From a virus, in IMG/VR virus record IMGVR_UViG_3300021165_001307, positions 1 to 25,769 of that record: DNA of 25,769 nucleotides. One strand, written 5' to 3'. This document shows positions 1 to 22,919 of this stretch, piece after piece; position 1 is the stretch's first letter; the number at the start of each line of letters is the position of its first letter. The notes under the pieces were generated by a model that was not told where the DNA came from, made no database searches, and saw nothing but the letters and a program-made list of their open reading frames with translations. Made by a program: the position numbers and the translations under genes.

Positions 1-3000
1 ACAACAAATCATAATTTTGTTAACGGACAGTCAATCATTTATAGTAATAATGGAAATCAAAGTCTAGGAATAGGAACCTTTGGACCTCCTGATAATGTTT
101 TCAACAGAATTGGAAATAAAACTCTGGTTAATGGTTCTGAGTATTATGTCCAAATCGTTAACCCAAGTAGCATAAAGTTATATCAGACTTTTAGTGATTA
201 TTATGTTGGAGTAAACACTGTTGGATTTACTACCGAAAATACAACAGGAATTCATAAATTTAGAACTCTTGAGAAGAATACTTTAAGAGAAATTAAAGTT
301 ATAGAACCTGGTAGTGGTTATCAATCTAGAAACTTATATGTAAAACCAACAGGTATATCTTCTGAAAGAGACTGTGTAATATTTAAAAATCACAACTTTA
401 ATGATGGTGATATTATTGAATATAATATTTCATCAATCGATGGTGTAACTTCACCATCTGTAATTTCTGGTCTATCTACAGAAAATTCATATTATATCTT
501 AAAAATAGATAATGACTCCTTCAGAGTAGCAAATGCTGGAATTGGAGCATCAATCGTTTCAAATTATGAAAGAAAGAACTACGTTAAGTTCTCTTCTACT
601 GGAACTGGATATCAAATCTTTAAGTATCCAAATATTGAAATAAACGTCAATGTTTCGTTCGGTAGCACGGTTGTTGGTATTATTACTGCAACTCCAGTTA
701 TTAGAGGACAACTTATTGATGCATATTTGTATGAAAAAGGAACAGGATATGGTTCAAACATTCTAAACTTTGTTAAAAAACCAAAAATTAGAATTAAGAA
801 TGGTAAAAATGCTGAAGTAGAACCAATTGTTAAGAATGGAAAAATAATTCAAGTTCAGGTTCTGTCTTCTGGTTCTGAGTATTATTCAGTTCCCAATTTA
901 AAAATTATTGGCGATGGTTTTGGCGCTGTATTAAGACCAGTAATATCAAACCAAAAACTAGTAAGTGTAATTGTTATTAACTCAGGAACAAACTATAATC
1001 AAGAAACAACCAAAATTAATGTAGTTGCGGCAGGTTCTGGAGCAATAATTGATCCTTCTATTAGATCTCTAACTTTAAATGAACAGTATAGAAACTCGGA
1101 AGATACTCTAATCGATACTCAAAATAACTTACAATATTCTATTGTCGGTTATTCTACAAACACTGTTGCAAGTGATTTTGGCGATACTGGGTCATCCCAT
1201 TCACCAATAATTGGATGGGCATATGATGGAAATCCAATCTATGGTCCATATGGTTTTTCAGATCCCGAGAACATTTCATCTAGTATTAGATTGTTAAAAA
1301 GTGGATATGTTTTAGATTCGTCTAGAGTTGAAAATAGACCAAGTTCTTTTGATGCTGGTTTCTTTGTAGAAGACTATGTTTATACTAATGCTGGCGACTT
1401 AGATGTTCACAATGGAAGATTCTGCAAAACATCAGAATTTCCTAATGGAACTTATGCTTACTTCGTTGGTATTGCAACAGATACTGCAACAAACACTTTA
1501 AAACCAGCATATCCTTACTTTGTTGGTGATTCATATAGATCGGTAGTTAATACTGATAACTTTATTTTAAATCAAACTTTTGACTTTAATAACTCCGATC
1601 TGATAAGAAATACGTTCCCATATAAAGTTGGTGATAGATATGCTGATAACGATTTCTTAGTGGAATCAAATGAAATTATTACACAACAAACTTTAATCGA
1701 ATCTGTAACCAAAGGTTCAGTTACTTCCGTATCAATTGATGAACCTGGTGATGGATATCGTGTTGGAGAAATTTCTATCTTTGATGATTCAAACACAAGT
1801 GGAAATGGTTTAAGTCTTGAAATATCTGAAGTTGAAGGAAAGGTAATTACTAATGTTTCCACTTCCGTAGAAACTTATAACAACTCAGTCTTTGTTTGGA
1901 AGGATAAGGAGACTGTAGAAGCAGTTATTTCACCATTCCACACTATAAGCGATAATGAGTATGTAAGTATTTCAGGTTTATCGACATCAATATACAAATT
2001 AGATAGAACTCACAAGGTAGGAGTTACGACTGCTAGAGTAAACTTAGTAAAAAATATTAGTGCAGTTGTCGCACCGGGAACTATTGAAGATATCTTTATC
2101 TCAAACATCCCATCTACTGTTTCAGTTGGTAGCACTATTACAATTGGAATTGGTGGATCTGAAACTTTAAGAGTACTTAATGTTTATAATGAAGGATCTA
2201 TTCTAAGAGTAAGAAGATCAGACACTGGTGTAGCACACACTGCATCGAGTCAAGTAAACGTAATACCAAACAAAATTGAAATACCACTTAATGCAAATTA
2301 TTTTGACTCAAGTGTAAATGATATTGTTTACTTCAATCCAAAACAAAGTGTAGGTGTTGGAACAACTATTGGTGGTTCTTCTACAATTATAAACACCGTA
2401 GGTGAAACATCCAAAAATATTTCTATATTGAATAGAAGCATCTATTTACCAAATCATCCATTTAAATCTGGACAGCAAGTTACACTCACTAAAAAAGATG
2501 GAACTTCTTCATTCTTATGTTCTGTTGATGGTGGAGTTACAGTATTCAACCTACCAAGTTCAGTTTCACAAACAGTTTATGTTATCAATAAATCAAAAGA
2601 TTTTATTGGAATAACAACTGCTGTTGGATTAACTACAAACACTGAAGGTGTAGCATTTACAACCAATGGTTCTGATAGTTATGAATACTATATTACTAGC
2701 AATCTAACTCAAGTAACTGGAAAAGTTGAAAAAATTAAGTCAACAGTTTCTGTTTCAACATCACATGGTTTGCAGATAGGAGATATTGTAACTCTTAATG
2801 TTTATCCTAATGTAACAACCGGAATAGGAAACTCCAGTTCAGTAAGAATTAAGTATAACCAAGAATATGATAAAGTTTTAGTCAACTCAATCGGATTTAA
2901 TTCAACAGGAATTAATACCAGTGCTTCTCAGATAACAATTGATGCATCTAATCTAAAGACGGGTGATAAAATATTCTATAATTCTACTGACTTAGTTGCT

Positions 3001-6000
3001 TCTGGACTTCAAACTGGAACATATTTTATTTACAAAATTGATGATAGTACAATAAAATTATCCAATACTTATTATGATACAACTTTAAAATATCCAAATA
3101 CCATTTCAATAGTTGGTGCTGGAGGTTCTGGACATGAAATAAGTCTGGTTAATCCACAAATTCCAATTGTTAGAAACTCGGACTTAGTTTTCAATGTTTC
3201 AAATTCTTCACTGCAAAATAGAAAGTTAAAAATATTCTATGATCAGAATTTTGATGATGAATTTGTATCTATTGGAAACACTTCAACGTTTAATATTTCT
3301 GGAGTAGGAACAATTGGTATATCAACCAGTGCAACGTTTACTCTGAAGTATTCTGATGGAGTTCCTTCCAAACTTTATTATACTCTAGAAAAGTCTGGAT
3401 ATCTGAGCACTTCAGATACTGAAGTTAGAAATCATTCTGAAATTTCATTTGTTGATAGTGCTTATAATGGCACTTACACCGTAACCGGAACAGGAACAAC
3501 CACGTTTAATATTGCACTATCCAAGGCACCAGAAAGAAATACGTTATATCCAACCCAACACGATGTATTAAAGTACACAACTTCATCTAGAACAACTTCT
3601 GGAGGGATTGGTAAATTAAAAACTATATTTGCAGGTTACAACTATAAGAAAGTGCCTAAGTTTGTTGGGTTCTCATCAAGTAGTGGAGAAAATGCAAACA
3701 TTATTGCAAACTCAACCACAATTGGTAAGATTAATAAAACCAGAATCTTAAATGCTGGTTTTGAATATTCTTCTGATAAGACTATCAGACCAGAAGCTTA
3801 CGTATCACCAATTATCTTTACTGAAAAATCAAATACTATTTCAAATGTACTGGTCACTGACGGTGGTAAAAATTATTCTTCGGCACCAAATCTGATAATT
3901 GTCGATCCAGAAACGGGAGAAGTTGTAGATAGTACCTCACTATCCTGCACGATATCTGGAAGTTCAGTAAACTCCGTAAAAATTATTTCAAACCCATATG
4001 GTTTAAGTTCTGTTCAACAAAGAATTATTGCGATAGACAACAGTAATGGAGTTTCAATTAGTTCGATTACATCTTCACCTGCTGGAATTGTAACATGTGT
4101 TCTTTCTACTCCCATTTTAGGATTTACAACTAATATTTTCTCAATTGGTGAAGAAATTTTTGTTGAAGGAATTGAAAAAGATAGTACTGCTGGTGATGGA
4201 TTCAATTCGGCAGATTATGGATATCAATTCTTTAGAGTAAGTTCCTACACAAATACGAACCCAGCTGTTGTAGAGTTTAGTCTTTCAGGAATTGCAACAA
4301 ATGCTGGTTTTGCAAAAACAAACCAGGGATATGCTTCAATCGTTTCTAGAAATAACTATCCAGTTTTTGATATTACTCAAACCTTTGCAACTCTAAACAG
4401 TGGTGAAAAACTTTTAACAAGCACTGGGGGTGGATATATCGAAAGAGACCTATACGTTTCAGAAAGCACAAGAAACTATATTAAGGTAAATGGTTCATAT
4501 ACACTTTCAGTTGGTGAAAAGGTAAAGGGTAAAAATTCTGGAGTCATTGTAACAGTTAAGAGTATAACTGAGAACAAAGGTCAATTTAAAGTTGATTATG
4601 CAACAAGACAAGACTATGGTTGGATAAGTGACACTGGAAAATTAAATGAATCATATCAAGTAACCTCTGATAACGATTATTATCAGAATCTATCTTACTC
4701 AGTAAGAAGTAAAATTCAGTATGATGAAATGATAGATCCAGTAAATCGTCTTCTTCATACTTCTGGTCTCAAGAATTTCTCAGATACTCAAATAGAATCA
4801 AAAGTTGGAAGTAAAGTTTCTTATGCTTCTACAACTAATGATACGATTGTCCTTGATATCATTGATAATAAGAGAGTTGATGCTATCAATAACTTCGATT
4901 TAACTCTAGATATTGATACATCATCTAATCAAACGAAGTCTAAGTTCTTAAAATTCAAGAATAAAAAACTAACTGATTATATCAAGTGTTTAACGAATAG
5001 AGTTCTACTTATTGATGATATTGAGTCTAGATTCTCCAACAGAGAATCAAATTCAGATACTTTTGTAGATATTGACTTCTTAGATGATACTTATTCAAGA
5101 TATTTAATTCAAGTAATAAATCCAAATAATCTAGATCGTCAAATATACGAATTTACAGTATTAAAAGATACTGGAAATTCTTATGTCTTAGAAAAAGGTT
5201 CTTTATCAAATACTAATATATCTCTAGGCGAAATTAGTGGTAAGAGTGATAGTGAAGGTCAATCAATTAGATTTACCCCTACAGATTTTTACGACACTGA
5301 TTATGATATCAAAATGGTGAAGACTAGATTCAACTCCTCCGTAAATGGAATAGGTACACAGTCTGTTGGATTTGTAAACCTCACGGGAGTTAATAAGTCT
5401 GTTGGTATTGGAACAACTGTAACGCTACTATCTTTCAACAAAGACAATGTTCAGAGTTTGTATGCGAACATTCAAATTCTAAACACTGTTACAGAAAAAA
5501 TGAACTATGTTGAGTTACTACTAGATCATGACGGAACAAACACATATCAGGCAGATTTTTACTTTGATAGTAGTGGTGTTCAAGGAAATTCTTCAAACTA
5601 TATGGGAACATTTGATTCCACCATCTCTGCTGGAATTGTTTCCTTAACTTATTACAATACAGAAAGTAACGTTGTTCTTGTAAGATCTAGTATCGTTGGA
5701 TTTGGTTCTACTTCTACTGGTATAGGAACATATAGATTCTTAGCTTCTGGACAACCAGGTGGTAGTGAGAGCAGTGCTAGATATGAGTCATCATATACTG
5801 TTTCATCTGGAACAACAAGTGTTATTGGCGTATCGACTGGTAATGTATCTTCTCTCAAGTCTCTTGTAAGAGTCTCATATGGAAATACGTCTGCTGTACA
5901 TCAAGTCTTGATGCTTCAAGATTCTTCAAACGTATACACAGTTCAGTATCCATTCCTATCAATAGGCAGCACTTCTGGAATTGGAACATTCGGTGGAGAG

Positions 6001-9000
6001 ATAAATGGTTCCTCTACTTATCTTAAGTTCTATCCTGATCCATTAATTAGTTCAAATATTCAAGTACAGAGTTTTAATGAAATTATTTACTTTGAAAATG
6101 ATTATGATAATGCTCCACAAAACTTAGACTACGGAACAGCAACAAGTCTTGTTCAACTATCTGCTTATGATGCAATTAATGGAAATAGAGCAAACAGACT
6201 CGATTTTGATATCAGATATGATGGAACTCAAATATACGTCAAGACATTTAATCCAGCAACCTCAAGTGTTTTAAATCCAGTTACAGGCATCTTCACAATT
6301 CCAAATCATTTCTTTAGTACTGGAGAAGAACTCTATTATGAACCAGGTTCTTCGTTTGTTGGAGTTGGTGCTACTGGAGTTGGAATCGGTGCAACCGCAA
6401 ACTATGTTGGAGTTGTAACTACAATACTACCTCCAAAAGTTTATGCAATCAAAGTAAATGATTCTCAATTTAAGTTATCAACTAAGAGAGAATATGCACT
6501 TGCAGGAATATTTGTAACATTTACATCATCTGGAACTGGTAATGCACATACTCTTGAGATGTCCAAAAAACTTGAAAAAACCATAATATCACTTAATGGT
6601 GTAGTTCAAAAACCACTTACTTTTGTACCAATATCATACACTGTAGCAAATAATTACGGGCAAGTAGGATTAGCCGCTACATTCTTCTCACTTTCTGGTA
6701 TTTCTTCCATCAAACCAAAAGATATCATAAAGATTGACGAAGAATATATGAGTGTAACTGACGTTGGAATAGGTACAACTACAACTGGACCAATTAGTGG
6801 AGTTGGAACTTTCCCATTAATTGAAGTTACTCGGGGATACGTTGGCAGTGCTGCAACATCACATAGTAATGGTGCTTTAGCTCAAATTTATAGAGGTGCA
6901 TATAACATTGAAAATAACAAAATTTGGTTTACTGAGGCGCCTAAAGGAAATCCAAGACAAAGGAGAAATCAGTCTAATTTACCAGTACCAAAAACAACAT
7001 TTAATGGTAGAGTTTATTTAAGAAATGATTACACTACAAATGTAATATATGATGATGTATCTGATCAGTTTACTGGTATTGGACAAACTTACGTAGTAAC
7101 AGTTCAAGGTATAAACACTACAGGAATTCAAACTGGAAGTGGAGTTCTATTCTTAAATGATATTTTCCAAACTCCAACAACATCAAATAATGCAGGTAAT
7201 AACTATGATGTATCAACACAGTCTGGTATTTCCAGTGTTAGATTTACAGGAATAACATCTACTAACGGGCAAATTATTGTTTCTCCTGGTGATGTAAATC
7301 AAAACCAACTTCCAAGAGGAGGAATTATTGTTTCTCTTGGTTCTACTTCTGGTGCTGGTTTTGCTCCTCTTGTTGGAGCATCAGTGACTGCCGTAGTTTC
7401 TGGCGGAGTTATCACTTCAGTTGGTATTGGAACGACAGATATTGTTGGTTCTGGTTATCGTGGTGTAGTTTCAATTGGTGTTACTGAAACTGGACATGCA
7501 GGAACCGCTGCTAATATCACAGCAACTGTTGGTGCTGGTGGAACTCTAACGTTTAACGTTGTTTCTGGAGGCACAGGATACACGAATCCACGCATATTGG
7601 TATCTGAACCAAATTATGAAAACTTACCAGTCATAGGCGTTTCTAGAGCTGGTGTGGGAGCAACTACCGATACTGGTTCAAACTTACTAATAACTTTAGA
7701 CGTTGGAGCAATTTCAACAACTGGTATCGGATCAACACTATTTGAAGTATCCTCGTTCAAAATTTCAAGACCAGGATATGGATTTAAAGTTGGTGATGTA
7801 TTTAAACCAGTTGGTTTAGTTACTGCTAGAGGACTTAATGCCCCATTGCAAGAGTTTGAACTGACTGTCTTGGATACATTCACAGATTCATTCTCATTCT
7901 GGCAGTTTGGTGAACTTGATTACATCGATTCCATCAAGAATCTACAAAACAACCAAAGAAAGAGATTTCCACTTTATTATAATGGTCAACTGTTGAGTTT
8001 TGAAAAAGATCCATCAAATACAACTTCTGTTAATATTGATCTTAATGCAGTTCTATTAATATTCATTAATGGAGTTATACAGCAACCAGGTGTTGCTTAT
8101 CAGTTCGACGGTGGAACATCATTCGTGTTTACCGATCCACCAAGAGTTGAAGATAATATTGCTATCTTCTTCTACAGAGGGACAAGAGGTGATGATACAG
8201 TATTCGTGAACGTTGCTGAAACTGTTAAAATTGGAGATTCGGTTCAAGTTTTCAGAAATAATGACTTTGATCAAACAATAAGTCAGAATCAAAGAGTTAT
8301 ATCTAATATTCCAGGGTCTGATAAAATTGAAACTGAAATTTATACTGCTCAAGGAATAGATGAAACATATTATAAACCACTAACCTGGATTAAACAAAAG
8401 GTTGACAAAGTTATTAACCTTGATATTGTCTCCAAAGAAAGAGATTCACTAGAAACTCAAATTTATCCAACTGCAAAAATCATTAAAGATGTACAAGCAT
8501 CCGATAATTCAATATTTGTAGATGATGCATCATTCTTCAATTATGAAGAAAATAATTATTCTATCACTATTGATAGTGTAGAGGGACTGATTGTTCAGGG
8601 AACAGATCCAGTATCTGCTGCAATCACTGCTGTAGTTTCTACCGCTGGAACTATCTCTTCGCTGAGCGTAGTTAACTTTGGAACTGGATACTCTGGTTCC
8701 GCAACCATTAAAATTGCATCTCCGTCAACAATTGGAGTTGGAGTAGGAAGCACTGCTACCGCAACAGTTTCCATTGTTGGAGGTTCAATAACAACTCCAG
8801 TTATTACTAACCCAGGTTTTGGATACACTTCATCCAATCCTCCACAAGTTATTGTATCATATCCCGACATTCAGGTAGAGAAAGTTACGAATATTACAAC
8901 AGTTGAAGGATTTGCAGGAATTATAACTGGTATCACCACAACAACTGGAACTTCAGGTAATCCACTTGCTCTAAAACTCTTCGTTCAAGGACCAAGTGGA

Positions 9001-9411: not shown

Positions 9412-9419
9412 TATAAATA
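9412..9419 (+). promoter_or_regulatory. T4-type late promoter box upstream of gp8
   Basis: An exact TATAAATA, the -10-type box read by the gp55 late sigma factor in T4-like phages, begins one base after the TAG stop of the giant upstream gene. It sits 18 bases before the gp8 ATG at 9438. Transcription would be expected to start about 6-8 bases past the box, giving a leader of roughly 12 bases. The only purine-rich ribosome site (AGGAAAAA, 9421-9428) would then be partly or wholly excluded. It probably drives gp8, the DUF4815 giant and the two small ORFs after it. Confidence 0.75.
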
Positions 9420-9437
9420 TAGGAAAAAGCTAATAAT

Positions 9438-10988: not shown

Positions 10989-10991
10989 AAA

Positions 10992-13900
10992 ATGCCACAG
11001 AAAACTAATCTCAACATTAATCCATATTATGATGATTTTGATATCAACAAGAACTTTTACAGAGTTCTTTTTAAACCAGGATATCCAGTTCAATCTAGAG
11101 AACTGACTACACTTCAGTCAATTCTTCAGAATCAAGTAGAATCGTTTGGTAGTCATATATTTAAAGAAGGATCCATGGTCATACCTGGATCAATTACATT
11201 TGATGATAAGTATTATTCTGTAAAAATTAACGCAGAGCACCTAGGGTTAGATGTTTCCCTTTATATCGATAAACTTATAGGAATAAGAGTTGAAGGGCAA
11301 AATTCTGGCGTAACTGCAGTAATTAAAAACTACAGTTTACCTTCAAATGATAATGTTGAGGAAGTAACTCTATACGTTAAGTATACATCTGCTGGTTCAG
11401 ATTTTGAGACAACTGAATTTGAAGATGGTGAATTACTTATCCTTCTCGATGGAATACAGTATGGAAACACATCAATTAATGTTGGAGACACTATTGCAAC
11501 TTTAATTGATACTGGTTCATGTACAACTGGTTCTGCTGTCGGATTGTCTGCAGGTGTTTACTTTATACGTGGAACTTTTGTAAATGTTCCCAATTCTTTA
11601 ATTGTTTTAGAACCATATTCTAACACACCAACATATAGAGTTGGTTTGAATATTTTAGAAGAAATTGTTACATCAAATGATGACCCATCTTTAAATGATA
11701 ATGCTAGAGGGTTTTCAAACTATGCAGCTCCTGGAGCAGACAGATTAAAAATAAGTACAGTTCTTGCTAAAAAGAGCATCAATGATTTTGATGATAAGAA
11801 CTTTGTAGAATTAATTAGAATTGATAATGGAATAATTAAAAAGTTACAGGACAAATCTGTATACTCAATTATAAAAGACTACTTTGCAAAAAGAACTTAT
11901 GAAGAGTCTGGCGACTATGCACTCAAGAACTTTGAAGTCGCCGCTTTAAACTCATTAAACGATAGAATTAAGAACGAAGGAATATATTTACCAACTCAAA
12001 AAACAGAACAAGGTGCAGAACCATCGGATGATTTATTATGCTATAAAGTTTCCCCAGGAACTGCATATGTTCGCGGATATGATATCAATATTCCAGCATC
12101 GACAATTTTAGATGTACAAAAACCAAGAGATACTCAAACTGTAAATACTGCTCTTGTACCATTCGAACTTGGTAGTTTACTTAGAGTCAACAATACATCT
12201 GGTACACCATTCGTAGGAATTCACACTGGTGGAAATACGGTAAAACTTTTCAATCAAAGAAAAGGTGTATCTGGATCTGGAACTACAGCAATTGGTGATG
12301 CAAGAGTATATACATTCAATCTAACAGATTCTGCATACCAGAATACATCATCTTCATGGGATCTTTATCTCTTTGATGTACAAACTTATACTGAGTTGAT
12401 TATTAACCAATCCCTAAACTCTGGCGATTGTCCTGTAGGTTCTTATGTAAAGGGTTTGAGTAGTGGTGGTTCTGGATATGTTGTAACTGCGCCTTCTGGA
12501 ACAACTTTAACTTTAACTCAAACATCTGGAACGTTTATTGTTGGCGAACAAATTACAATCAACGATACTCTAGTCAATGCTCGTTCTGTTGTTTCAGTTA
12601 GAGCATTCTCCACCGAAGATATTAAATCAGTTTATCAAAATGCTGTAGGTATAACACCAGCACTGAAGACCGCATTTTCTGCAGATTCTTCTCTGTTTAG
12701 AAAAATTCCATTTGGGTTCAATGCAACAGATAAGATAACTGTAAACTCAGCAGGCATAGTTACATGCCCAGGTAAGTCTTTCTTAGGAATAAAAACAGAT
12801 TCAATTATTAGATATCAAAAGACTGGTGTATCTACTAATGTAAGCACATTTAATGAAGTTGTTTCTATCTCTGCTGATGGATACACAATGACGGTCAGTG
12901 CTGTTCCATCAGTTAATGGCGTTTGTGATGGTACATTACCATCATCATCAGAAACAACTACCTTCAGTCTTGGAGTTCCAGATTTTAAAAATACAGAAAA
13001 GTCTGGTCTTTATACAAAATTAAATCAAAGCAATATATCATCAGTAAATCTATCTGGTTCTAATTTAATTGTAACATCTCAAGTTAGGGAAGTTTCAACC
13101 AATAGTACTGGAACAGCAACTATAACAGTTTCCAATACAGGAATTTCAAGTGCTTTCTTTGAAGCATATGACGCTGAAAGATATTCAGTTTTCTATTCTG
13201 ATGGAACTATTGAAGACTTATCTTCAGATCAGTTTGTTTTAAGTGTTGATGGAACTCAAATAACAATAAATGGTCTTAGAGCAAGTCAGAGTTCAAACGT
13301 AACAGTCAATACAACTTTAAGAAAGCAAGTTCTAACTAACAAAAACAAGACTTTTGCTAGAAGTAGAACGTTAAATATCACAAAAACTAATAATGGATCT
13401 ACAGCATCTGTAAGTGGTTTAACGACAAGTCTATTTTATGGTACAAGAATTGAAGATAATGAGATATCTTTGAATGTTCCTGATGTTGTTAACATCGTAT
13501 GTGTATATGAATCTCTCAACACTTCAACACCTATTTTAGATCGACTAACTTTCCCATCAGGTCTAGGTTTAGACTCAAATGCATTTATTGGTGAAAAAAT
13601 TATTGGAAGTAACAGTGGAGCAGTTGCCCAAGTCGTAACTTTACCAAGTTCTGGTAATGAAGTTGACTTTGTTTACTTAAATGGATCAAAATTTGATTCT
13701 GGAGAAGCAGTTACTTTTGAAGAGTCAAATATTACTTCATCAATTCAGTCGATAACAGTTGGAAGTTATCTTGATGTAACAAGCAGATTTACTTTAGATA
13801 AAGGTCAAAAAGAGCAATATTATGATTATTCAAGACTTGTAAGAGTACAAAATACTCCAGCACCATCAAGACAACTTTTAGTTGTTTTCAATTATTATAA

Positions 13901-16900
13901 TGTAGCAACCAATCAGCAAGGCGATATCTTTACAGTAAATTCATATGATGCTGAAAGATATACAAATGATATTCCACTACTTCAGAATGGACTAAGAGCG
14001 ACTGATGTTCTAGATTTCAGACCAAGAGTATCTGAATTCACTTCAACATCACAGTCTCCATTTGCATATGGAACTAGGTCTTTTGTAGTTTCGACAGCAT
14101 ACTCTGCTATCACTCCAAATGAAAGTTCTTTACTTGGATATTCATTCTATCTACCAAGAGTTGATAGAATAATTTTAGATAAACTAGGACAGTTCTCTAT
14201 TGTTAAGGGAGTTTCTGCTTTAGAACCAAAAGCTTCTTTAAACATTGAAGAAGCGATGGATATTGCTACTATTTACTTACCAGCATATCTTTACAATCCA
14301 CAAGACGCCAAGATAACCTTGGTTGATAATAGAAGATATACGATGAGAGACATTGGTTCTCTTGAAGATAGAATTGAAAACCTTGAGATAACAACGTCTC
14401 TTTCACTTCTAGAGGTTAACACTAAGACTCTACAAATTCAAGATACTGATGGTCTATCAAGATTTAAAACAGGATTCTTTGTCGATGACTTTAAAAATAA
14501 TAGTTTAATTGATAAAACAAATCCAGATGTAAAATGTGATGTAAACACAACTGAAGGTAAACTTATACCTTCAACAGATTTCTGGTCTTTAAAATTACAA
14601 CCAGCTTTAGCAACAAACCTTGATCCATCAACCGCAGACTTTTCTACAAATCTCAATCTTCTTGATAATAATGTAAGAAAAACTGGAGACCTAGTTACAC
14701 TAAACTATGAAGAAACTGGTTGGTTGGAGCAACCATTTGCAACTCAAGTTGAAAATGTAAACCCGTTTAATATTGTAGAATATACTGGCGGAATTACTCT
14801 CAATCCTTCTTCAGATAACTGGGTAAGAAATATTTACATTGAAAATAAAAGAACAGTATCTGATGGATCAATAGGAAATGCTGGAGATAGTTATGACTTT
14901 GTAGAAAGCGTTCAGGTGAGCAGTGAGCCAGATCCATTTATGAGATCTAGAAACGTTGAGTTTAGATCTGCTGGACTGAGACCATTAACAACACATTATT
15001 CATTCGTCGATGATATAAGTTCAATTGATATTGTACCCAAGTTACTTGAAATCTCAATGGTTTCTGGTTCATTTAATATTGGAGAAGATGTTGATGGATT
15101 TATTGGTTCCGAAAAGGTTATTTCTTTCAGAACTGCAAAACCATCTCATAAAGCAGGAACTTATAATAGTCCAACTTCAGAATATAATGCAAACCCATAT
15201 AACAAGGCACAAATTTTACCATCTGCATATTCTGCATCTTCTACAGTACTAAACATTGATACATCTTCATTAGCAGAAGAATCAATAACAAAATATGGTG
15301 GATATGTTAAGATTGGTGTTAAACTTGTTGGAAAAACCAGCGGTGCTGTAGCGTCAATATCCAATGTTAGACTCATTACAGATACTTTTGGAGACCTGAT
15401 AGGATGCTTCTTTATTAGAGATCCAAACACAACTCCAGTTCCACTGGTTAGAATTAGAACAGGGGAAAGATTATTTAAATTAAATCAAAATTCAGAAAAC
15501 GTCAAACCTCTACCTGGAGATAAAACATCAATTTCTTCAGCACAAACGACTTATACTGGAACTGGTATAATTCAAACTCAAATTACAAATATAGTTCAGG
15601 TTAGAAATCCACCCCCACCACCCCCACCACCACCTGCTGGCGGCGGCGGAGGTGGAAAAGATCCACTTGCACAATCATTTACTGTAGATGAGACTGGAGC
15701 ATTCTTGACTTCTGCAGATGTTTATTTTGCAGAAAAAGATCCAAACGAAAGACTATTTGTAGAACTTAGAACTGTAGAACTAGGAACTCCAACAGGTCAA
15801 TTAGTTGCAGATTATGCAAGAGTAATATTGGAACCAAGTCAGATAAACGTTTCATCTGATGGAACTGCAGTCACCAATATTAAATTCCCATCCCCAGTTT
15901 ACTTACAACCAAACGTAGAATACGCTTTGGTATTCTTAGCACCATCTTCAGATAAGTATAAGATGTGGATAGCAGAGATGGGTAAGAAGACTGTTAATAC
16001 CAGTAACTTACCATCTGCAGAAAGTGTTGTTGTAACCAAACAATATGGTGGAGGAAGTCTATTTAAGTCTCAAAACGGAACTATTTGGACTGCAAACCAG
16101 TTTCAAGATCTTAAGTTTAAACTCTATAAAGCTAAGTTTACTTCCAATAAGGGATCTATGTGGTTCTATAACCCACCTCTTATCCCAGAATCATCTGCAA
16201 TTGCTTATCTGAATGATAACTCAATTACTACCTATCCTAGGAAACTAAAAGTTGGTATTACAACTACCAGCGTCATGAACACAATTCTTGTTCCAGGAAC
16301 TAAGGTAAGTTATGGTTCTGTTTCTTCACCTGGTTCAAGTGGATATGTAGAACTTGCTGGTGGACCACTATCTACAGTTTCAATTGCAAATGCGGGTCTA
16401 GGATACTCTGGAGGTTCTTCAGGTGGAACCTATACAAACGTTCCATTATACACAATTACTGGTAAAGGATCTGGTGCAACTGCAACAGTAACCGTAACAA
16501 CTGGTGGTGTCGTAAATACTGTAAGTATTGCTAACACTGGAAATGGTTATGTTGTTGGAGATATTATTGGTGTTACAACAAGTAATGTTGTTAAAGGTAC
16601 TGGAGCAAGAATTTCAGTTTCTGCTATCGGTGGTTTAGATACTCTATATCTAACTAATGTTCAAGGTGAGTCATTTACCAATAACCAACCACTCATTTAC
16701 TATAGTGGCGCAACACCAGTTGCTACAGCAAGTACCGTTATAAGAGGATCATCGACTGAAATTGACGCATTATATTCTGGTAATGTTGTTGAAGTTCGTC
16801 AGTTTAACCATGGTATGCACGCCGACAACAATGTTGTAGAAATCAAGAATATTCTTCCAGATACAGTACCAGTTCAGTTGACTTCTGATGTTACCATTAG

Positions 16901-18116
16901 TAGCACCAATATTTCGATAGCAAATACAAATTCATTTGCACAGTTTGAAGGTATTAGCACATCGAGAGGATACGTTAAAGTCAATAATGAGATTATGTAC
17001 TACACTTCAGTTAACTCTGGTTCTGGTGGTGCTGGAACACTTGGAATTTCAACAAGAGGTGTTGATGGGACTGCGATAACAAACCATGCATCTGGTGATG
17101 CCGCATTTAAATATGAACTCAATGGAATGTCGTTGACTAAGATTAACACAATTCATAACTTACCATCTAATGCATCACTTAAAGCACGTAGAGGTCTAGA
17201 TGTTTATCATCTAGAAGTCAATAGACTTGGTAGATCCACTGGAGATTCTCAAGTAAGTTTCACCAATGAAAAAGTTGTTGGTGGAAAACTCATTTCAGCA
17301 TCTCAAAACTACCAATTCTCTGGAGTTGAACCTTATATCAACACCATTACTCCAGGTAAGAATACTACAGTTAATGCGGAAATTAGAACGGTAACAGGTA
17401 CAAGTTCTGGAGGAACAGAAGTATCATTCCAAGATAAGGGATATGAAAATGTTCAACTTAATAAGATTAACTTCTTACCAGAACCAAGACTTGTATGTTC
17501 CCAACAAAATGAAACAAACAGACTATCATCACTACCAAGAAATAAATCGTTCACATTAAAAGTGAATATGAGTAGTGATGATGCAAATCTTTCCCCAGTA
17601 CTAGACTTACAAAATGCATTCTTGATTCTTTCCAGAAATAGAGTTAATAACCCTATTTCAGATTATGTTTTAGATAATAGATCTAAATTAATTACTGGAG
17701 ATCCACATAGTTCGGTTTACATCTCCAATAGAGTTGATCTTAAGCAACCAGCATCATCTCTTAAAGTTCTTGTTTCCGCTTATAGACCGGCAGAGGCAGA
17801 CTTTAGAGTTCTGTATAAGTTGTACAAGACAGATTCTAGTGAAGTGGATCAATCATTCGTTCTATTCCCAGGATATGATAACCTGAAAGATACTGATGGT
17901 GATGGTTTTGGCGATCTTGTAATTGACTCCTCTAATAATAGTGGTAGATCTGATGCTTTTGTACGTCCAAGTAACGCTGGAGAGTTCTTAGAGTATCAAT
18001 TTACTGCTGATAACTTAGACATATTTACTGGTTTTGCAATTAAGATCGTAATCAGTTCTACAAACGAATCTAAATCACCAGAGTTTAAGGATCTAAGAGT
18101 TATTGCACTAGCATAA
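10992..18116 (+). CDS. DUF4815-type giant baseplate/adhesion structural protein
   Basis: The 2374-residue protein opens with NPYYDDFDINKNFYRVLF and PGYPVQSRELTTLQSILQ (about 10-47), the hallmark of DUF4815 phage proteins. A long beta-rich middle carries several GExIxGxxSGA units (about 95-117, 478-525, 866-912, 1441-1460). A linker of nine prolines, alanine and six glycines (1540-1555) precedes DPLAQSF (1557-1563). A probable jelly-roll-like segment (about 1557-1670, with YLQPNVEYALVFLAPS and MWIAEMG) follows. Next come two GxGY repeats (tyrosines 1805 and 1853), an EIM...RG...H unit (2000-2032), and a conserved C-terminal region from about 2185 containing NPISDYVLDNRSKLITGDPHS. A calcium-loop-like DTDGDGFGD is at 2300-2308. 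No membrane segment is apparent. It occupies the T4 gene 9-12 position, so it probably serves in the outer baseplate or in host attachment, but sequence similarity to those T4 proteins is not visible. The ATG three bases after the gp8 stop suits a coupled start. Confidence 0.85.
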   Translation: MPQKTNLNINPYYDDFDINKNFYRVLFKPGYPVQSRELTTLQSILQNQVESFGSHIFKEGSMVIPGSITFDDKYYSVKINAEHLGLDVSLYIDKLIGIRVEGQNSGVTAVIKNYSLPSNDNVEEVTLYVKYTSAGSDFETTEFEDGELLILLDGIQYGNTSINVGDTIATLIDTGSCTTGSAVGLSAGVYFIRGTFVNVPNSLIVLEPYSNTPTYRVGLNILEEIVTSNDDPSLNDNARGFSNYAAPGADRLKISTVLAKKSINDFDDKNFVELIRIDNGIIKKLQDKSVYSIIKDYFAKRTYEESGDYALKNFEVAALNSLNDRIKNEGIYLPTQKTEQGAEPSDDLLCYKVSPGTAYVRGYDINIPASTILDVQKPRDTQTVNTALVPFELGSLLRVNNTSGTPFVGIHTGGNTVKLFNQRKGVSGSGTTAIGDARVYTFNLTDSAYQNTSSSWDLYLFDVQTYTELIINQSLNSGDCPVGSYVKGLSSGGSGYVVTAPSGTTLTLTQTSGTFIVGEQITINDTLVNARSVVSVRAFSTEDIKSVYQNAVGITPALKTAFSADSSLFRKIPFGFNATDKITVNSAGIVTCPGKSFLGIKTDSIIRYQKTGVSTNVSTFNEVVSISADGYTMTVSAVPSVNGVCDGTLPSSSETTTFSLGVPDFKNTEKSGLYTKLNQSNISSVNLSGSNLIVTSQVREVSTNSTGTATITVSNTGISSAFFEAYDAERYSVFYSDGTIEDLSSDQFVLSVDGTQITINGLRASQSSNVTVNTTLRKQVLTNKNKTFARSRTLNITKTNNGSTASVSGLTTSLFYGTRIEDNEISLNVPDVVNIVCVYESLNTSTPILDRLTFPSGLGLDSNAFIGEKIIGSNSGAVAQVVTLPSSGNEVDFVYLNGSKFDSGEAVTFEESNITSSIQSITVGSYLDVTSRFTLDKGQKEQYYDYSRLVRVQNTPAPSRQLLVVFNYYNVATNQQGDIFTVNSYDAERYTNDIPLLQNGLRATDVLDFRPRVSEFTSTSQSPFAYGTRSFVVSTAYSAITPNESSLLGYSFYLPRVDRIILDKLGQFSIVKGVSALEPKASLNIEEAMDIATIYLPAYLYNPQDAKITLVDNRRYTMRDIGSLEDRIENLEITTSLSLLEVNTKTLQIQDTDGLSRFKTGFFVDDFKNNSLIDKTNPDVKCDVNTTEGKLIPSTDFWSLKLQPALATNLDPSTADFSTNLNLLDNNVRKTGDLVTLNYEETGWLEQPFATQVENVNPFNIVEYTGGITLNPSSDNWVRNIYIENKRTVSDGSIGNAGDSYDFVESVQVSSEPDPFMRSRNVEFRSAGLRPLTTHYSFVDDISSIDIVPKLLEISMVSGSFNIGEDVDGFIGSEKVISFRTAKPSHKAGTYNSPTSEYNANPYNKAQILPSAYSASSTVLNIDTSSLAEESITKYGGYVKIGVKLVGKTSGAVASISNVRLITDTFGDLIGCFFIRDPNTTPVPLVRIRTGERLFKLNQNSENVKPLPGDKTSISSAQTTYTGTGIIQTQITNIVQVRNPPPPPPPPPAGGGGGGKDPLAQSFTVDETGAFLTSADVYFAEKDPNERLFVELRTVELGTPTGQLVADYARVILEPSQINVSSDGTAVTNIKFPSPVYLQPNVEYALVFLAPSSDKYKMWIAEMGKKTVNTSNLPSAESVVVTKQYGGGSLFKSQNGTIWTANQFQDLKFKLYKAKFTSNKGSMWFYNPPLIPESSAIAYLNDNSITTYPRKLKVGITTTSVMNTILVPGTKVSYGSVSSPGSSGYVELAGGPLSTVSIANAGLGYSGGSSGGTYTNVPLYTITGKGSGATATVTVTTGGVVNTVSIANTGNGYVVGDIIGVTTSNVVKGTGARISVSAIGGLDTLYLTNVQGESFTNNQPLIYYSGATPVATASTVIRGSSTEIDALYSGNVVEVRQFNHGMHADNNVVEIKNILPDTVPVQLTSDVTISSTNISIANTNSFAQFEGISTSRGYVKVNNEIMYYTSVNSGSGGAGTLGISTRGVDGTAITNHASGDAAFKYELNGMSLTKINTIHNLPSNASLKARRGLDVYHLEVNRLGRSTGDSQVSFTNEKVVGGKLISASQNYQFSGVEPYINTITPGKNTTVNAEIRTVTGTSSGGTEVSFQDKGYENVQLNKINFLPEPRLVCSQQNETNRLSSLPRNKSFTLKVNMSSDDANLSPVLDLQNAFLILSRNRVNNPISDYVLDNRSKLITGDPHSSVYISNRVDLKQPASSLKVLVSAYRPAEADFRVLYKLYKTDSSEVDQSFVLFPGYDNLKDTDGDGFGDLVIDSSNNSGRSDAFVRPSNAGEFLEYQFTADNLDIFTGFAIKIVISSTNESKSPEFKDLRVIALA
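15609..15656 (+). other. Polyproline-polyglycine linker in the DUF4815 protein
   Basis: The codons give P9-A-G6 (residues 1540-1555). This local GC-rich tract stands out in AT-rich surroundings. Proline codons are mixed (CCA, CCC, CCT) and glycine codons are mixed (GGC, GGA, GGT), so it is more than a simple trinucleotide expansion. A stiff polyproline rod followed by a flexible glycine stretch, immediately before the DPLAQSF domain, suggests a boundary between the N-terminal virion-anchored half and a mobile C-terminal half. Confidence 0.8.
17889..17927 (+). other. Calcium-binding-loop-like motif near C terminus of the DUF4815 protein
   Basis: Residues 2300-2312 read DTDGDGFGDLVID. Asp at loop positions 1, 3, 5 and 9 with Gly at 6 resembles thrombospondin type-3 or EF-hand-like calcium loops. 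The usual acidic residue at position 12 is displaced by one (Asp2312). Calcium binding is inferred from the motif only. Confidence 0.45.
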
Positions 18117-18322
18117 TGATACCAGTAGAAGGAGACAAAAATCTCTTTAGAGATGAGAATAGTGGAGCAATTGTTAATTGCGATACAACAGGTTATACAC
18201 AATATCTTAAAATGAAAGGTGAAAAAAAGAAGCAACGTGAAGAGATTGAACAGATCAAAAAGGATATTGATGAAATTAAATTTTTATTGAAGGAGTTGGT
18301 AAATGGATCCAGATCAAATTAA
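18116..18322 (+). CDS. Small conserved virion-cluster protein with C-terminal coiled coil (68 aa)
   Basis: The ATG overlaps the TAA of the preceding giant gene by one base (TAATG), indicating coupled translation; no strong ribosome site is visible. The N-terminal half (MIPVEGDKNLFRDENSGAIV, residues 1-20) matches what I recall of short hypothetical proteins at this spot in cyanomyoviruses. The C-terminal half (about 33-62: KGEKKKQREEIEQIKKD followed by IDEIKFLLKELV) is a charged heptad-like helix that should form a coiled coil. Function is unknown. Between baseplate and fibre genes it could be a small virion or assembly factor. Confidence 0.75.
   Translation: MIPVEGDKNLFRDENSGAIVNCDTTGYTQYLKMKGEKKKQREEIEQIKKDIDEIKFLLKELVNGSRSN
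18290..18295 (+). promoter_or_regulatory. Strong ribosome binding site for the 62-aa ORF
   Basis: AAGGAG lies seven bases before the ATG at 18303. It supports that start even though it makes the gene overlap the previous one by 20 bases. The site is inside the 3' end of the 68-residue gene. It is one of the few strong ribosome sites in this cluster. Confidence 0.7.
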
Positions 18323-18491
18323 TTTAGAAAACTTGAGCAAAAGTTTTGAATATTTTAAATATGCATCAGAGATAGATTCTGTAACTGATGTTGAAACATT
18401 ACGGAACATTGCAAAATGTTATTACAAACTTTATTTAAAGCAACAGGAGGTTGTTTCTAAACTTGGATCTGTTGGGTTGGAAGGAATATAA
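18303..18491 (+). CDS. Small hypothetical protein (62 aa)
   Basis: A 62-residue, mostly helical protein (NLSKSFEYFKYASEID, then TLRNIAKCYYKLYLKQQEVV) with no recognised domain. The start is backed by AAGGAG seven bases upstream and the first 20 bases overlap the preceding ORF. The helical pattern with spaced Leu/Tyr residues suggests a small helical bundle or oligomerising factor. Its stop codon lies within the next late promoter box, so it is probably the last gene of the baseplate transcript. Function is unknown. The reading frame is judged real because of the ribosome site, tight packing and sense strand. Confidence 0.7.
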   Translation: MDPDQINLENLSKSFEYFKYASEIDSVTDVETLRNIAKCYYKLYLKQQEVVSKLGSVGLEGI

Positions 18492-18494
18492 ATA
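18487..18494 (+). promoter_or_regulatory. T4-type late promoter box upstream of the fibre/neck genes
   Basis: An exact TATAAATA spans the stop codon (TAA, 18489-18491) of the 62-residue ORF. An overlapping TATAAATT follows at 18493-18500. The first downstream start is at 18522, 27 bases beyond the box, which leaves a leader of about 20 bases. This is the second and last exact late box I find in the window. It is well placed to transcribe the fibre-like genes, the coiled-coil ORF, gp13, gp14, gp15 and gp16. Confidence 0.72.
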
Positions 18495-18521
18495 TAAATT
18501 AGATCCTGAAAATCTGTATAA

Positions 18522-18749
18522 ATGGCTGAAATAAAGGTCCGAGTAGGGCAACAAAATGCGGTAAAGGTCATATCTTCACTTGCTGGCGCTCAAGGATTGT
18601 CTTTATCAGAACTCAGTGATGTAAACGCCACAAATTTATTAGATGGTATGGTTCTTGTTTATAATGGATCTACTAAAAAGTGGGATGCAACGCTAACTTT
18701 AACACCTGGAGCAACCCAGAATTTGGACATCAACGGAGGTAACTTTTAA
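18522..18749 (+). CDS. Short fibre-like structural protein (75 aa)
   Basis: A 75-residue protein with the sequence SLSELSDVNATNLLDGMVLV followed by YNGSTKKWDAT. This is the 'LSDV...dG.vLvYn..t.kW' strand pattern often seen as a repeat unit in phage tail fibres and other adhesins. It ends in QNLDINGGNF, resembling the LDGGTF end of the next gene. The ATG follows a late promoter; no clear ribosome site precedes it. The stop overlaps the next ATG by one base (TAATG). It is probably a minor virion protein or fibre accessory. Function is inferred from motif and neighbours only. Confidence 0.72.
   Translation: MAEIKVRVGQQNAVKVISSLAGAQGLSLSELSDVNATNLLDGMVLVYNGSTKKWDATLTLTPGATQNLDINGGNF
18735..18740 (+). 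promoter_or_regulatory. Ribosome binding site for the tail-fibre-like gene
   Basis: GGAGGT lies eight bases before the ATG at 18749 and fixes that start. It is made by the Gly-Gly codons (GGA GGT) of the C-terminal NGGNF of the preceding gene, so one sequence serves both the protein end and the next start. Confidence 0.75.
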
Positions 18750-20428: not shown

Positions 20429-20431
20429 AAT

Positions 20432-20647
20432 ATGAATAAAGAAAGTGAAGTTGATGTTAATGTTTTAGTGCGTTTATATAATCAAAAATTAGCGTTACTA
20501 ACAAATCAAAATGTTTTATTGGAAGCTAAACTCCAAACTTTAACGGCAGATTTTGCTGAAGAAAAAAATAATCTTCTATCGGCAAATCTTGAAATACAAA
20601 ATAAATATGATGCATTATTGGAAAGCACCAAAAAAGAAGGTAAGTAA
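20432..20647 (+). CDS. Small coiled-coil protein upstream of gp13 (71 aa)
   Basis: A 71-residue protein that is almost entirely one predicted amphipathic helix. After NKESEVDVNVLVRLYNQKL (2-20) come NQNVLLEAKLQTLTADFAEE and NNLLSANLEIQNKYDALLES with leucines in heptad spacing. It has no signal peptide or enzyme motif. It lies between the fibre-like gene and gp13 with gaps of three and two bases, so it is in the same late transcript. It resembles short hypothetical proteins seen at this locus in other cyanomyoviruses (from memory). A chaperone, fibre-attachment or small neck role is conceivable; function is unknown. Confidence 0.75.
   Translation: MNKESEVDVNVLVRLYNQKLALLTNQNVLLEAKLQTLTADFAEEKNNLLSANLEIQNKYDALLESTKKEGK
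20635..20640 (+). promoter_or_regulatory. Ribosome binding site for gp13
   Basis: AGAAGG lies nine bases before the ATG at 20650, inside the last codons of the 71-residue ORF. It supports the chosen gp13 start. Confidence 0.55.
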
Positions 20648-20649
20648 AA

Positions 20650-21492
20650 ATGGCGAAACCATCAACTAGACAAGAACTTATCGATTATTGTCTGAGACGC
20701 TTAGGTGCGCCCGTATTAGAAATAAACGTAGACGATGATCAAATTGATGATCTAGTTGATGACGCCATTCAATACTTTAATGAAAGACATTTTGATGGTG
20801 TCGAAAGAATGTATCTCAAATATCAGATTACTCAAGCTGATATTGATAGAGGTTCTGCAAGAAATACTTCAGGACCAGGTATTGTTACGACTACAGGTTC
20901 TTCATCCATTCCTGGATATGGAACAACAACATTTAATTTTTACGAAACATCAAACTATATTCAAGTTCCAGATTCAGTTATAGGAATTGAAAAAATATTT
21001 AAATTTGATACGAGTTCCATTTCTGGTGGAATGTTTAGTATTAAGTATCAGTTATTCTTAAATGACTTATACTATTTTAATTCAGTTGAACTATTACAAT
21101 ATTCAATGGTTAAAAGTTATCTAGAAGATATTGACTTCTTATTAACTACAGATAAACAAGTTCGTTTCAATAAAAGACAGAACAGACTATATTTGGATAT
21201 TGATTGGGGTGCTCAAAGTGTAGGAAACTATATGGTTATTGATTGTTATAGAGCTCTCGATCCAACTAATTTTTCTAAAATTTATAATGATAGTTTTATC
21301 AAAAAATATCTAACTGCATTAATTAAGAGACAGTGGGGTCAAAACTTAATTAAGTTTAGAGGTGTTAAACTTCCTGGAGGTATTGAATTTAATGGTAGAG
21401 AATTATATGAGGATGCTGAAAGAGAACTAGAAAATCTGAAACAGGTCATGGCTCTGGAGCATGAGTTACCACCATACGACTTTATTGGATAA
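20650..21492 (+). CDS. gp13: Neck protein gp13 (head completion)
   Basis: The 280-residue protein matches T4-like gp13, a neck protein that binds the portal vertex after DNA packaging and, with gp14, closes the head and provides the platform for tail joining. The hallmark is the N terminus: STRQELIDYCLRRLGAPVLE then INVDDDQIDDLVDDAIQYFN and ERHFDGVERMYLKYQI (about 5-61). Also visible are a VIGIEKIFKFD strand (about 110-120), DIDWGAQSVGNYMVIDCYRA, and the C-terminal FRGVKLPGGIEFNGRELYED followed by AERELENL. Length is close to T4 gp13 (about 309 residues). Unlike gp14 and gp15 it shows no inserted GxGY or RG-H module. The ATG has an AGAAGG site nine bases upstream, and its stop overlaps the gp14 start by one base, fitting equimolar production of neck partners. 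Confidence 0.93.
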   Translation: MAKPSTRQELIDYCLRRLGAPVLEINVDDDQIDDLVDDAIQYFNERHFDGVERMYLKYQITQADIDRGSARNTSGPGIVTTTGSSSIPGYGTTTFNFYETSNYIQVPDSVIGIEKIFKFDTSSISGGMFSIKYQLFLNDLYYFNSVELLQYSMVKSYLEDIDFLLTTDKQVRFNKRQNRLYLDIDWGAQSVGNYMVIDCYRALDPTNFSKIYNDSFIKKYLTALIKRQWGQNLIKFRGVKLPGGIEFNGRELYEDAERELENLKQVMALEHELPPYDFIG

Positions 21493-22919
21493 TGGCACTT
21501 AATCCCTTTTTCTTACAAGGAACACCTAGCGAACAGCGTCTACTGCAAGATTTAGTAAATGAGCAGTTGAGGATGTATGGTGTTGAAGTAATTTATATTC
21601 CAAGAAAGTTTGTAAAGAGAAAAACTATAATTGAAGAAATACAGTCTTCAAGATTTGATGATAACTTTGCCTTAGAAGCATATGTAAACACATATGATGG
21701 ATATTCTGGAGCAGGTGATATACTAACAAAATTTGGTATGAGTTTAAGAGATGAGTTACTCATCACAATATCTAAAGAAAGATTCGAAGACTTCATTGCT
21801 CCATTTTTAGGTGGTTTAGATGATGGGACTGAAGAATCTGAAATTGAAGTTTCTACTCGCCCAAGAGAAGGAGATTTAATATATTTTCCACTAGGGCAAA
21901 GGTTATTTGAAGTTAAATTTGTTGAGCATGAGCAACCTTTCTATCAATTAGGAAAATTATATGTTTATGAACTTAAGTGTGAACTCTTCGAATATGAAGA
22001 TGAAATCATCGACACTTCTATTGATGAAATTGATACTCAAGTTCAAGAAGAAGGATATATTACAACTTTACAACTAGTTGGTGTTGGTGTAACTGCTACT
22101 GCAACAGCATCTGTTGGTACTGGATATATTAGGCAAATTTTCTTGAATAATGATGGTTCTGGATATACTTCAGATCCTATTGTTGCTATTAGCACATCAC
22201 CAACTGGTAATCCAAATAATAATGCTTCTGCTGTTGCTATCACTACAGTTAGAGCAGGAGTTCGTTCTGTAGAACGAATCTATTTAACAAATGCTGGTGT
22301 AGGATATACTGTACCACCTACAATAACAATATATGGTGGAGCAGGTGCAGGAGCAGCGGCAACTTGTTCTGTAGAAACTACATATAATGGTCTTATCAGG
22401 TTCATTCTAACAGATGGTGGGGTTGGATATTCAACAACACCAGTAATAACAGTTAGTGCTCCTGGAGTTGCAGGTATTGGTGTAACCGCAGTTGGAATAG
22501 CATCTGTTGGTAGAGTTGGTTCCAACGATGTTGTTAGAGCAATATATATATCAAATCCTGGTATTGGATATACTTCAACACCAACTATTACAATTGCAAA
22601 TCCAACGCTGATAACAGGAATTGGAACCTACCTGTTTAATGAAGTAATTGAAGGAACTAGGTCAAGAACCAGAGCAAGAGTCAAAGAATGGGATAAAGAT
22701 ACTAAGATTCTTAAAATTTCTTTTGTTGGTATTGGAAGCACCACACAAGGATTCCTACCCGGAGAAACTATTGTTGGAAAAGAGTCTGGTGCAATATATT
22801 CTGTTCAAACATTTAATCAAATGGATCTTTATGATAAATATAGTCAAAATGATGAAATTGAAGAAGAGGCAGATCTCATTTTAGATTTTTCAGAATCAAA
22901 TCCATTTGGTAGTTATTAA
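21492..22919 (+). CDS. gp14: Neck protein gp14 with internal repeat insertion
   Basis: Residues 1-175 and the C terminus match T4-like gp14, which works with gp13 in head closure and tail joining. Diagnostic stretches are LNPFFLQGTPSEQRLLQDLV (3-22), VIYIPRKFVKRKTIIEEI (33-50), GAGDILTKFGMSLRDELLIT (73-92), and the end YSQNDEIEEEADLILDFSES plus NPFGSY (450-475). T4 gp14 has about 256 residues; this one has 475. The excess is mainly a glycine-rich insertion at about 190-372 with four GxGY units (tyrosines 225, 272, 313, 360; spacing 47, 41 and 47), followed by a GTRSRTRARV...GETIVGKESGAIYSV unit (about 388-438). The start overlaps the gp13 stop (TAATG) and lacks a strong ribosome site, so translation is probably coupled. 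The insertion keeps frame and codon style and is flanked by intact conserved ends, so it is not a frameshift artefact. Confidence 0.93.
   Translation: MALNPFFLQGTPSEQRLLQDLVNEQLRMYGVEVIYIPRKFVKRKTIIEEIQSSRFDDNFALEAYVNTYDGYSGAGDILTKFGMSLRDELLITISKERFEDFIAPFLGGLDDGTEESEIEVSTRPREGDLIYFPLGQRLFEVKFVEHEQPFYQLGKLYVYELKCELFEYEDEIIDTSIDEIDTQVQEEGYITTLQLVGVGVTATATASVGTGYIRQIFLNNDGSGYTSDPIVAISTSPTGNPNNNASAVAITTVRAGVRSVERIYLTNAGVGYTVPPTITIYGGAGAGAAATCSVETTYNGLIRFILTDGGVGYSTTPVITVSAPGVAGIGVTAVGIASVGRVGSNDVVRAIYISNPGIGYTSTPTITIANPTLITGIGTYLFNEVIEGTRSRTRARVKEWDKDTKILKISFVGIGSTTQGFLPGETIVGKESGAIYSVQTFNQMDLYDKYSQNDEIEEEADLILDFSESNPFGSY
22059..22607 (+). repeat. Four GxGY repeat units encoded inside gp14
   Basis: The protein repeat unit reads roughly (I/V)xxIxLxNxGxGYxxxPxIxI, then a glycine/alanine-rich strand. 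The four copies are centred on NDGSGY, NAGVGY, DGGVGY and NPGIGY. DNA copies have diverged (different codons for the same residues), so this is an old protein-level repeat rather than a recent DNA duplication. The pattern predicts a stack of short beta strands. Confidence 0.8.

Follow-up and report, generated by a model that had tools for sequence, protein, structure and literature searches.

A GxGY beta-repeat shared by four virion proteins of a cyanomyovirus and its probable kinship with domain I of the T4 tail sheath protein

Two described systems come closest to the repeat reported here. Domain I of the T4 tail sheath protein gp18 (PF22639; 3FO8, 3FOA) is a six-stranded barrel with an additional helix, which protrudes outward without taking part in gp18-gp18 contacts and binds both the baseplate and the long tail fibres in their retracted state; the mutations G106S, S175F and A178V in this domain inhibit fibre retraction (PMC3004832). 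The immunoglobulin-like (Ig-like) domains of phages are promiscuous add-on beta modules, which occur with variable presence on many unrelated virion proteins. We analysed a window of 25,769 bases, the entire IMG/VR virus record IMGVR_UViG_3300021165_001307, and found that a unit of about 40 residues, the GxGY unit, recurs in four of its virion proteins: gp7, gp8, a DUF4815 protein and the neck protein gp14. These units are homologous and do not reflect composition bias. We consider it probable, at roughly 0.6, that they represent a promiscuous module which works as a surface-exposed docking module and is related to gp18 domain I. The unit resembles the Ig-like domains in its mode of occurrence; unlike these, it is a 40-residue three-strand repeat and, on present evidence, not an Ig sandwich. 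At E up to 10, the window units matched no Ig family in Pfam; a synthetic consensus matched only Fn3_arc (E 1.1).

Gene order and profile matches identify the window as the baseplate-neck cluster of a P-SSM2/ACG-2014f-like cyanomyovirus (Kyanoviridae). The genes for gp7, gp8, the DUF4815 virion structural protein, a phrog_15769 protein, gp13, gp14, gp15 and gp16 follow each other in an order that is co-linear with P-SSM2 and close to ACG-2014f. The 5' part of gp7, the "first giant" of the initial annotation, is missing because the window is the whole contig. The cores of gp14, gp7 and gp8 are clear orthologues of the T4 proteins, whereas no GxGY cassettes occur in those three T4 proteins. The four carriers are:

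1 to 9411, plus strand: gp7, baseplate wedge initiator, 5'-truncated by the contig end, the main carrier (phrog_2885; co-linear with P-SSM2 gp7 of 5195 residues).
9438 to 10988, plus strand: gp8, baseplate wedge protein, carrier (Pfam Phage-Gp8, 1.4e-15).
10992 to 18116, plus strand: DUF4815 virion structural protein (T4-GC 109), carrier (Pfam DUF4815, 6.4e-62; gene order identical in P-SSM2).
21492 to 22919, plus strand: gp14, neck protein (head closure), carrier (Pfam T4_neck-protein, 3.1e-31; PDB gp14, 2.5e-23).

Homology across the carriers was established with a hidden Markov model (HMM) seeded with 260 units that were cut from gp14 orthologues only. In gp7, this model gave scores of 20.0, 10.1 and 8.6 bits; no score above 4.3 bits was seen in 100 copies of gp7 that had been shuffled locally. 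With close orthologues it was too narrow to lift gp8 and the DUF4815 protein above the controls, which was solved by iteration and by two-unit profiles. Widened by clustering and four iteration rounds against all orthologues, the model picked up the other three carriers in the order gp7, gp8, DUF4815 protein, reaching 773 matches in total, while reversed sequences gave none at any round. For profile-profile comparison, the cluster was cut into 167 overlapping segments of 90 residues, each aligned with its own orthologues. The gp14 repeat segments matched gp7 2881-2970 at 98.2%, gp7 271-360 at 95.8%, the DUF4815 protein 1801-1890 at 94.2%, gp7 2476-2565 at 93.8% and gp8 181-270 at 72%, against a median of about 1% over the other window segments. 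Profiles centred on two units linked every pair of carriers over 55-75 columns (gp8-gp14 93.6%, gp8-gp7 97.0%, gp8-DUF4815 96.4%, gp14-gp7 98.6%, gp14-DUF4815 95.6%, gp7-DUF4815 97.3%). The proposal of the initial annotation, one unit in four otherwise unrelated proteins, is borne out by the gp14-seeded HMM and these profile links; the outcome that it had named as speaking against a shared unit, an HMM unable to connect the copies across proteins, did not occur.

The unit consists of a strand A (I-x-x-I-x-I-x-N-x-G), the G-x-G-Y turn, a short strand B (P-x-V-x-I), a G-x-G-A turn and a strand C; the HMM consensus is GGISSITITNAGSGYTTAPTVTISGPITGIGTTATAEAVIS. Neither Pfam nor NCBIfam holds a family for it, even at E 10, and we found no paper describing the repeat. 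A PDB sequence search gave a marginal match only, to the Acinetobacter tailspike Dpo31, which has the same GGVSAITITDGGSGY motif (E 0.087). GxGY units are embedded in repeat-bearing segments of the profiles of PHROG 460 (gp14), 701, 19630, 708, 2885, 438, 5342 and 1922; these PHROGs, however, name whole proteins and do not describe the unit as a family of its own. In the window, gp8 and the DUF4815 protein hold two units each and gp14 four. For gp7 we count six by HMM and about 14 by eye, the roughly eight extra motif copies lying mostly in segments with weaker profile support, so that the earlier estimate of about eleven was fair. The landmarks named in that annotation all lie where it had placed them, including EPGSGY, FGTGY (nucleotides 8677-8691) and PGFGY (8812-8826) in gp7 and the copies in the other three carriers. 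The units are listed below with matches of the iterated HMM marked (in gp8, it matched residues 219-257); a looser threshold adds gp7 572-601 and gp8 259-298.

292 to 390, plus strand: gp7 unit with Y107 (EPGSGY, residues 102-107, nucleotides 304-321), by direct reading; segments 46-135 and 91-180 reach 59-63% to gp14 in hhalign.
838 to 945, plus strand: gp7 unit, residues 280-315; iterated HMM, 19.8 bits; segment 271-360 reaches 96% to gp14 in hhalign.
961 to 1062, plus strand: gp7 unit, residues 321-354; iterated HMM, 11.4 bits.
1714 to 1803, plus strand: gp7 unit, residues 572-601 (GDGYRVGE); HMM at the looser threshold; top window segment for the T4 gp18 domain I profile, 79%.
3832 to 3918, plus strand: gp7 unit, residues 1278-1306; iterated HMM, 21.4 bits.
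7420 to 7650, plus strand: gp7 units with Y2486 and Y2527; segment 2476-2565 reaches 94% to gp14 in hhalign.
8647 to 8775, plus strand: gp7 unit, residues 2883-2925; iterated HMM, 31.3 bits; 98% to gp14 in hhalign.
8782 to 8865, plus strand: gp7 unit, residues 2928-2955; iterated HMM, 10.8 bits.
10092 to 10331, plus strand: gp8 two-unit cassette, residues 219-298 (Y233 and Y273); unit HMM; six strands in the AlphaFold2 model; gp18 domain I match at Z 5.5.
16371 to 16502, plus strand: DUF4815 protein unit 1, residues 1794-1837 (Y1805); iterated HMM; 94-97% to other carriers in hhalign.
16518 to 16631, plus strand: DUF4815 protein unit 2, residues 1843-1880 (GNGYVVGD, Y1853); pair at 94-97% in hhalign; 63-70% to T4 gp18 domain I unit 1.
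22122 to 22244, plus strand: gp14 unit 1, residues 211-251 (Y225); iterated HMM, 27.2 bits; modelled with high local confidence (see below).
22266 to 22379, plus strand: gp14 unit 2, residues 259-296 (Y272); iterated HMM, 37.2 bits.
22386 to 22508, plus strand: gp14 unit 3, residues 299-339 (Y313); iterated HMM, 34.8 bits.
22533 to 22649, plus strand: gp14 unit 4, residues 348-386 (Y360); iterated HMM, 43.5 bits.

AlphaFold2 models the gp14 insert at a predicted local distance difference test (pLDDT) score of about 90, with a long, a short and a long strand (A-B-C) per unit, and the gp8 pair at about 80, with six strands (223-228, 236-245, 248-257, 260-271, 276-279 and 293-297). The strand order is thus identical in the two modelled carriers, as expected in the initial annotation for units of one fold. 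On our best reading of these models, two tandem units close into a small six-stranded barrel, and longer runs form arrays. The gp8 cassette sits between parts matching T4 gp8 9-211 and 302-334, and a further, weaker match concerns T4 gp8 262-280; these positions come from a piecewise alignment, as aligning the gp8 family globally with T4 gp8 gave nothing informative past residue 202. In gp14, the unit block lies after the part homologous to T4 gp14, at a place which in the T4 protein corresponds to an arm (178-256) that binds gp15 (PMC12270204).

The GxGY unit probably shares common descent with T4 gp18 domain I. Both consist of two A-B-C units in a six-stranded barrel with a GxxY turn in unit 1 and an S/G-rich turn before the last strand, and both form an excursion inserted into another domain. 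In contrast to the window proteins, T4 has a single two-unit copy, found in the sheath only and with a longer helix in unit 2; the carriers in the window are gp7, gp8, gp14 and the DUF4815 protein, and the cyanophage sheaths of ACG-2014f and syn9 gave no unit match. In comparison with solved structures, gp8 222-298 superimposes on 3foa 99-186 with Z 5.5 (72 residues aligned, 2.8 Å), and over 3foa and 3fo8 the match covers 72-74 residues at 2.8-3.0 Å and 18-20% identity. The sheath of Klebsiella phage KP1 variant Lilla1 follows with Z 5.0, and no other structure matched that part of the gp8 model above Z 2.9. When a domain I profile built from 13 Straboviridae was compared with the 167 window segments, unit-bearing segments took the top ten places, the best reaching 79% over 22 columns around G-x-x-Y-x-V-G-D. 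Bacterial two-unit cassettes align with the domain I profile in register, at 7.0% against 0.05-0.2% for controls including a reversed profile. Among 16 T4 proteins examined, gp18 was the sole one with a unit match, and prophage sheaths of Brucella, Roseospira and Nostoc hold undisputed units. The three T4 mutation sites, moreover, fall on turns that match the pair of turns conserved in the GxGY unit. If residues are counted without the initiator Met, the only numbering that gives Gly at 106 and Ala at 178, the GxxY turn of unit 1 has G106 as its first Gly, and the S-S-G-L-A turn of unit 2 contains both S175 and A178.

Several observations weigh against this relationship. Pfam Gp18_dom_I reached 13.4 bits on the DUF4815 protein repeat, below its cut-off of 27, and matched neither gp14 nor gp8. 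The sequence link to gp18 is weak, with the 79% over 22 columns as its best value and 15% for the gp8 pair itself, and a Z of 5.5 is within the range reached by unrelated folds. The T4 helix lies in unit 2 between strands A and B, whereas the gp8 model has a short helix (281-286) between B and C. Taken as a whole, the models of the carriers have medium quality (mean pLDDT 66-67; gp14 65.8). For the gp14 model, finally, the 50 matches listed include no gp18 and are filled by a different domain. Searched with the complete gp14 model, Foldseek returned mainly the T4 gp14 core and VIA mainly a split barrel formed by residues 187-200 plus 375-443, so that both provided little test of the repeat part in the PDB. 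Each line of evidence for the gp18 link is weak; they are partly independent and agree in register. Because the Pfam cut-off is not reached, we do not file the window units as members of PF22639, and our claim is one of common descent and similar working. Most likely, the T4-like coliphages carry one diverged two-unit copy of the unit, namely gp18 domain I.

From the T4 retraction mutations on the two matching turns we infer that the unit presents these turns as a docking surface. On this reading, many virion proteins have acquired the unit in a loop or as an extension at the C-terminus, in this window the four carriers, and it would probably stand out from the carrier core like gp18 domain I, with no role in core assembly. 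The two glycine-rich turns would then be offered to fibres and neighbouring virion parts. Docking and exposure on the virion surface are thus proposed for these phages by analogy with T4.

The unit varies in copy number and occurs far beyond this cluster. Among 83 near-complete gp14 sequences, 69 hold four units, 13 hold five or six and one, that of syn9, holds two, while T4 gp14 holds none; this agrees with the variable presence between orthologues that had been anticipated. Whole-genome searches with the A3 profile gave 15 matches in P-SSM2, nine in ACG-2014f and 32 in syn9, and no unit match in the T4 genome. Most of the syn9 matches lie in a structural protein of 6076 residues (DQ149023.2, 60762-78992), which occupies the gp7 position beside gp6 and gp10-like genes. 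Tail-fibre-like proteins elsewhere in P-SSM2 and ACG-2014f also contain the unit. In bacterial genomes, which were searched with the consensus sequence of the unit, it is present in the prophage tail sheaths of Brucella pecoris (L222) and Nostoc foliaceum (L264), in a protein of Roseospira (L208) that is sheath-like by sequence, and in lambda-like tail tubes of Pseudomonas and Stenotrophomonas. Secreted or surface-type proteins from many phyla of bacteria and archaea contain it as well, in up to 18 copies. The lambda-like major tail tubes (L206, L247, L199, L200 and L256, at about 2600-3400) carry exactly two units in a single internal loop, and the sheath-like proteins of Brucella and Roseospira likewise have exactly two, as would be expected if the units were inserted pairwise.

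For 796 of 797 units, the best match is the same carrier in another phage, each gp14 unit keeps its positional identity across phages, and DNA comparison between the window carriers shows no more than chance-level matches of 13-20 bases. The same-carrier matches and the chance-level DNA sharing indicate that the spread predates the divergence of these phages, in keeping with the old spread that the initial annotation had suggested. Its idea that the unit spread between genes of one morphogenesis cluster is not borne out in that form: as the unit also occurs in fibre-like proteins, sheaths, tubes and secreted proteins far outside the cluster, repeated capture from a wide pool appears, from these sequence comparisons, at least as likely as gene-to-gene copying. 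A broader extension of the docking proposal is tentative and, as it stands, rather unlikely: the unit might be a general docking module of tailed phages, of which the T4 sheath knob is one diverged member, and cyanomyoviruses might carry this knob in multiplied form on proteins of the neck, the baseplate and the fibres, so that fibres can be docked and parked along the whole virion.

Among the alternatives to a docking module, structural filler survives best, although we regard it as unlikely. The units could serve as cheap and stable spacers, making virion proteins larger or stiffer by packing against neighbours, with no specific partner. Of the 27 columns of the gp14 insert that are conserved at 95%, 23 hold G, Y, P, N or D, mostly turn residues, and the remaining positions vary more than the core (mean 0.66 vs 0.85). 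This pattern is consistent with a scaffold with partner-dependent exposed positions, and equally with plain filler, to which the drift in copy number from 2 to 6 and the many-copy arrays of unrelated secreted bacterial proteins would also be congenial. Filler, however, does not account for the positional identity of the gp14 units nor, if the homology holds, for the specific phenotype of the T4 mutations in the matching gp18 turns, loss of fibre retraction (PMC3004832). Considerably less probable are carbohydrate-binding surface modules that stick the phage to the host envelope, as proposed for Ig-like phage domains. Tail-fibre-like proteins do contain the units, as do enzymes secreted by bacteria, among them a GH64 glucanase-type protein, but no carbohydrate-binding family in Pfam or NCBIfam matched the window units, which leaves the sugar-binding suggestion of the initial annotation unsupported; the conserved positions are turn and packing residues, and neck protein and baseplate wedge carriers are not receptor-binding in T4. 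A protein-docking module, presumably surface-exposed, is favoured by way of the match to T4 gp18 domain I. Mere composition bias, in which short Gly/Thr/Ser/Val-rich low-complexity sequences converge on GxGY, is hardly credible: the regions are rich in Gly/Thr/Val and the units short, but the reversed, shuffled and non-repeat controls rule it out, with profile links of 93-99% where the background median is about 1%, and the gp14 and gp8 models show one strand order.

The carriers share at least two further modules besides the GxGY unit, and the cluster therefore resembles a mosaic built from a small number of recurring add-ons. The second module has the motif I..GxExMxV....L.V.RGY.GT.A..H..GA.I and lies at the gp15 C-terminus (23636-23878), in gp7 (6667-6882) and in the DUF4815 protein (about 16914-17126); its gp15 copy reaches 97% to gp7 2206-2295 and 95% to the DUF4815 protein 1981-2070. 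Within gp15 its presence clearly varies, as orthologues fall into a long class with the extension (n=18, about 350-368 residues) and a short class (n=58, under 300 residues). The third module (GE.[IV].G..SGA.A.V) is found in gp14 (22617-22826), gp8 (10515-10778) and the DUF4815 protein (residues 91-180, 451-540 and 856-945). According to the model, it folds like an EF-Tu domain II or riboflavin-synthase type barrel, and the four gp14 GxGY units are apparently inserted inside this barrel (aligned model residues about 187-200 plus 375-443). In addition, gp7 contains a YHYH domain (PF14240, E 2.6e-25) at residues 395-497 (window 1183-1491). Short open frames lie at 18117-18748, between the DUF4815 gene and the next long open frame, and at 20429-20649, before gp13; P-SSM2 has several small genes at the matching positions.

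With the proposed kinship, an unnamed and very common beta-repeat gains a structural identity, and the giant virion proteins of T4-like phages abundant in the sea would be tied to a T4 domain for which genetic data exist. The unit also explains why unrelated virion proteins are called as one another in annotation: the family profiles share it, and prophage sheath and tube proteins match the PHROG profiles of head closure and baseplate families because GxGY units are embedded in them. For the phages themselves, our reading makes a testable prediction, namely that the glycine-rich turns of the unit would be docking sites.

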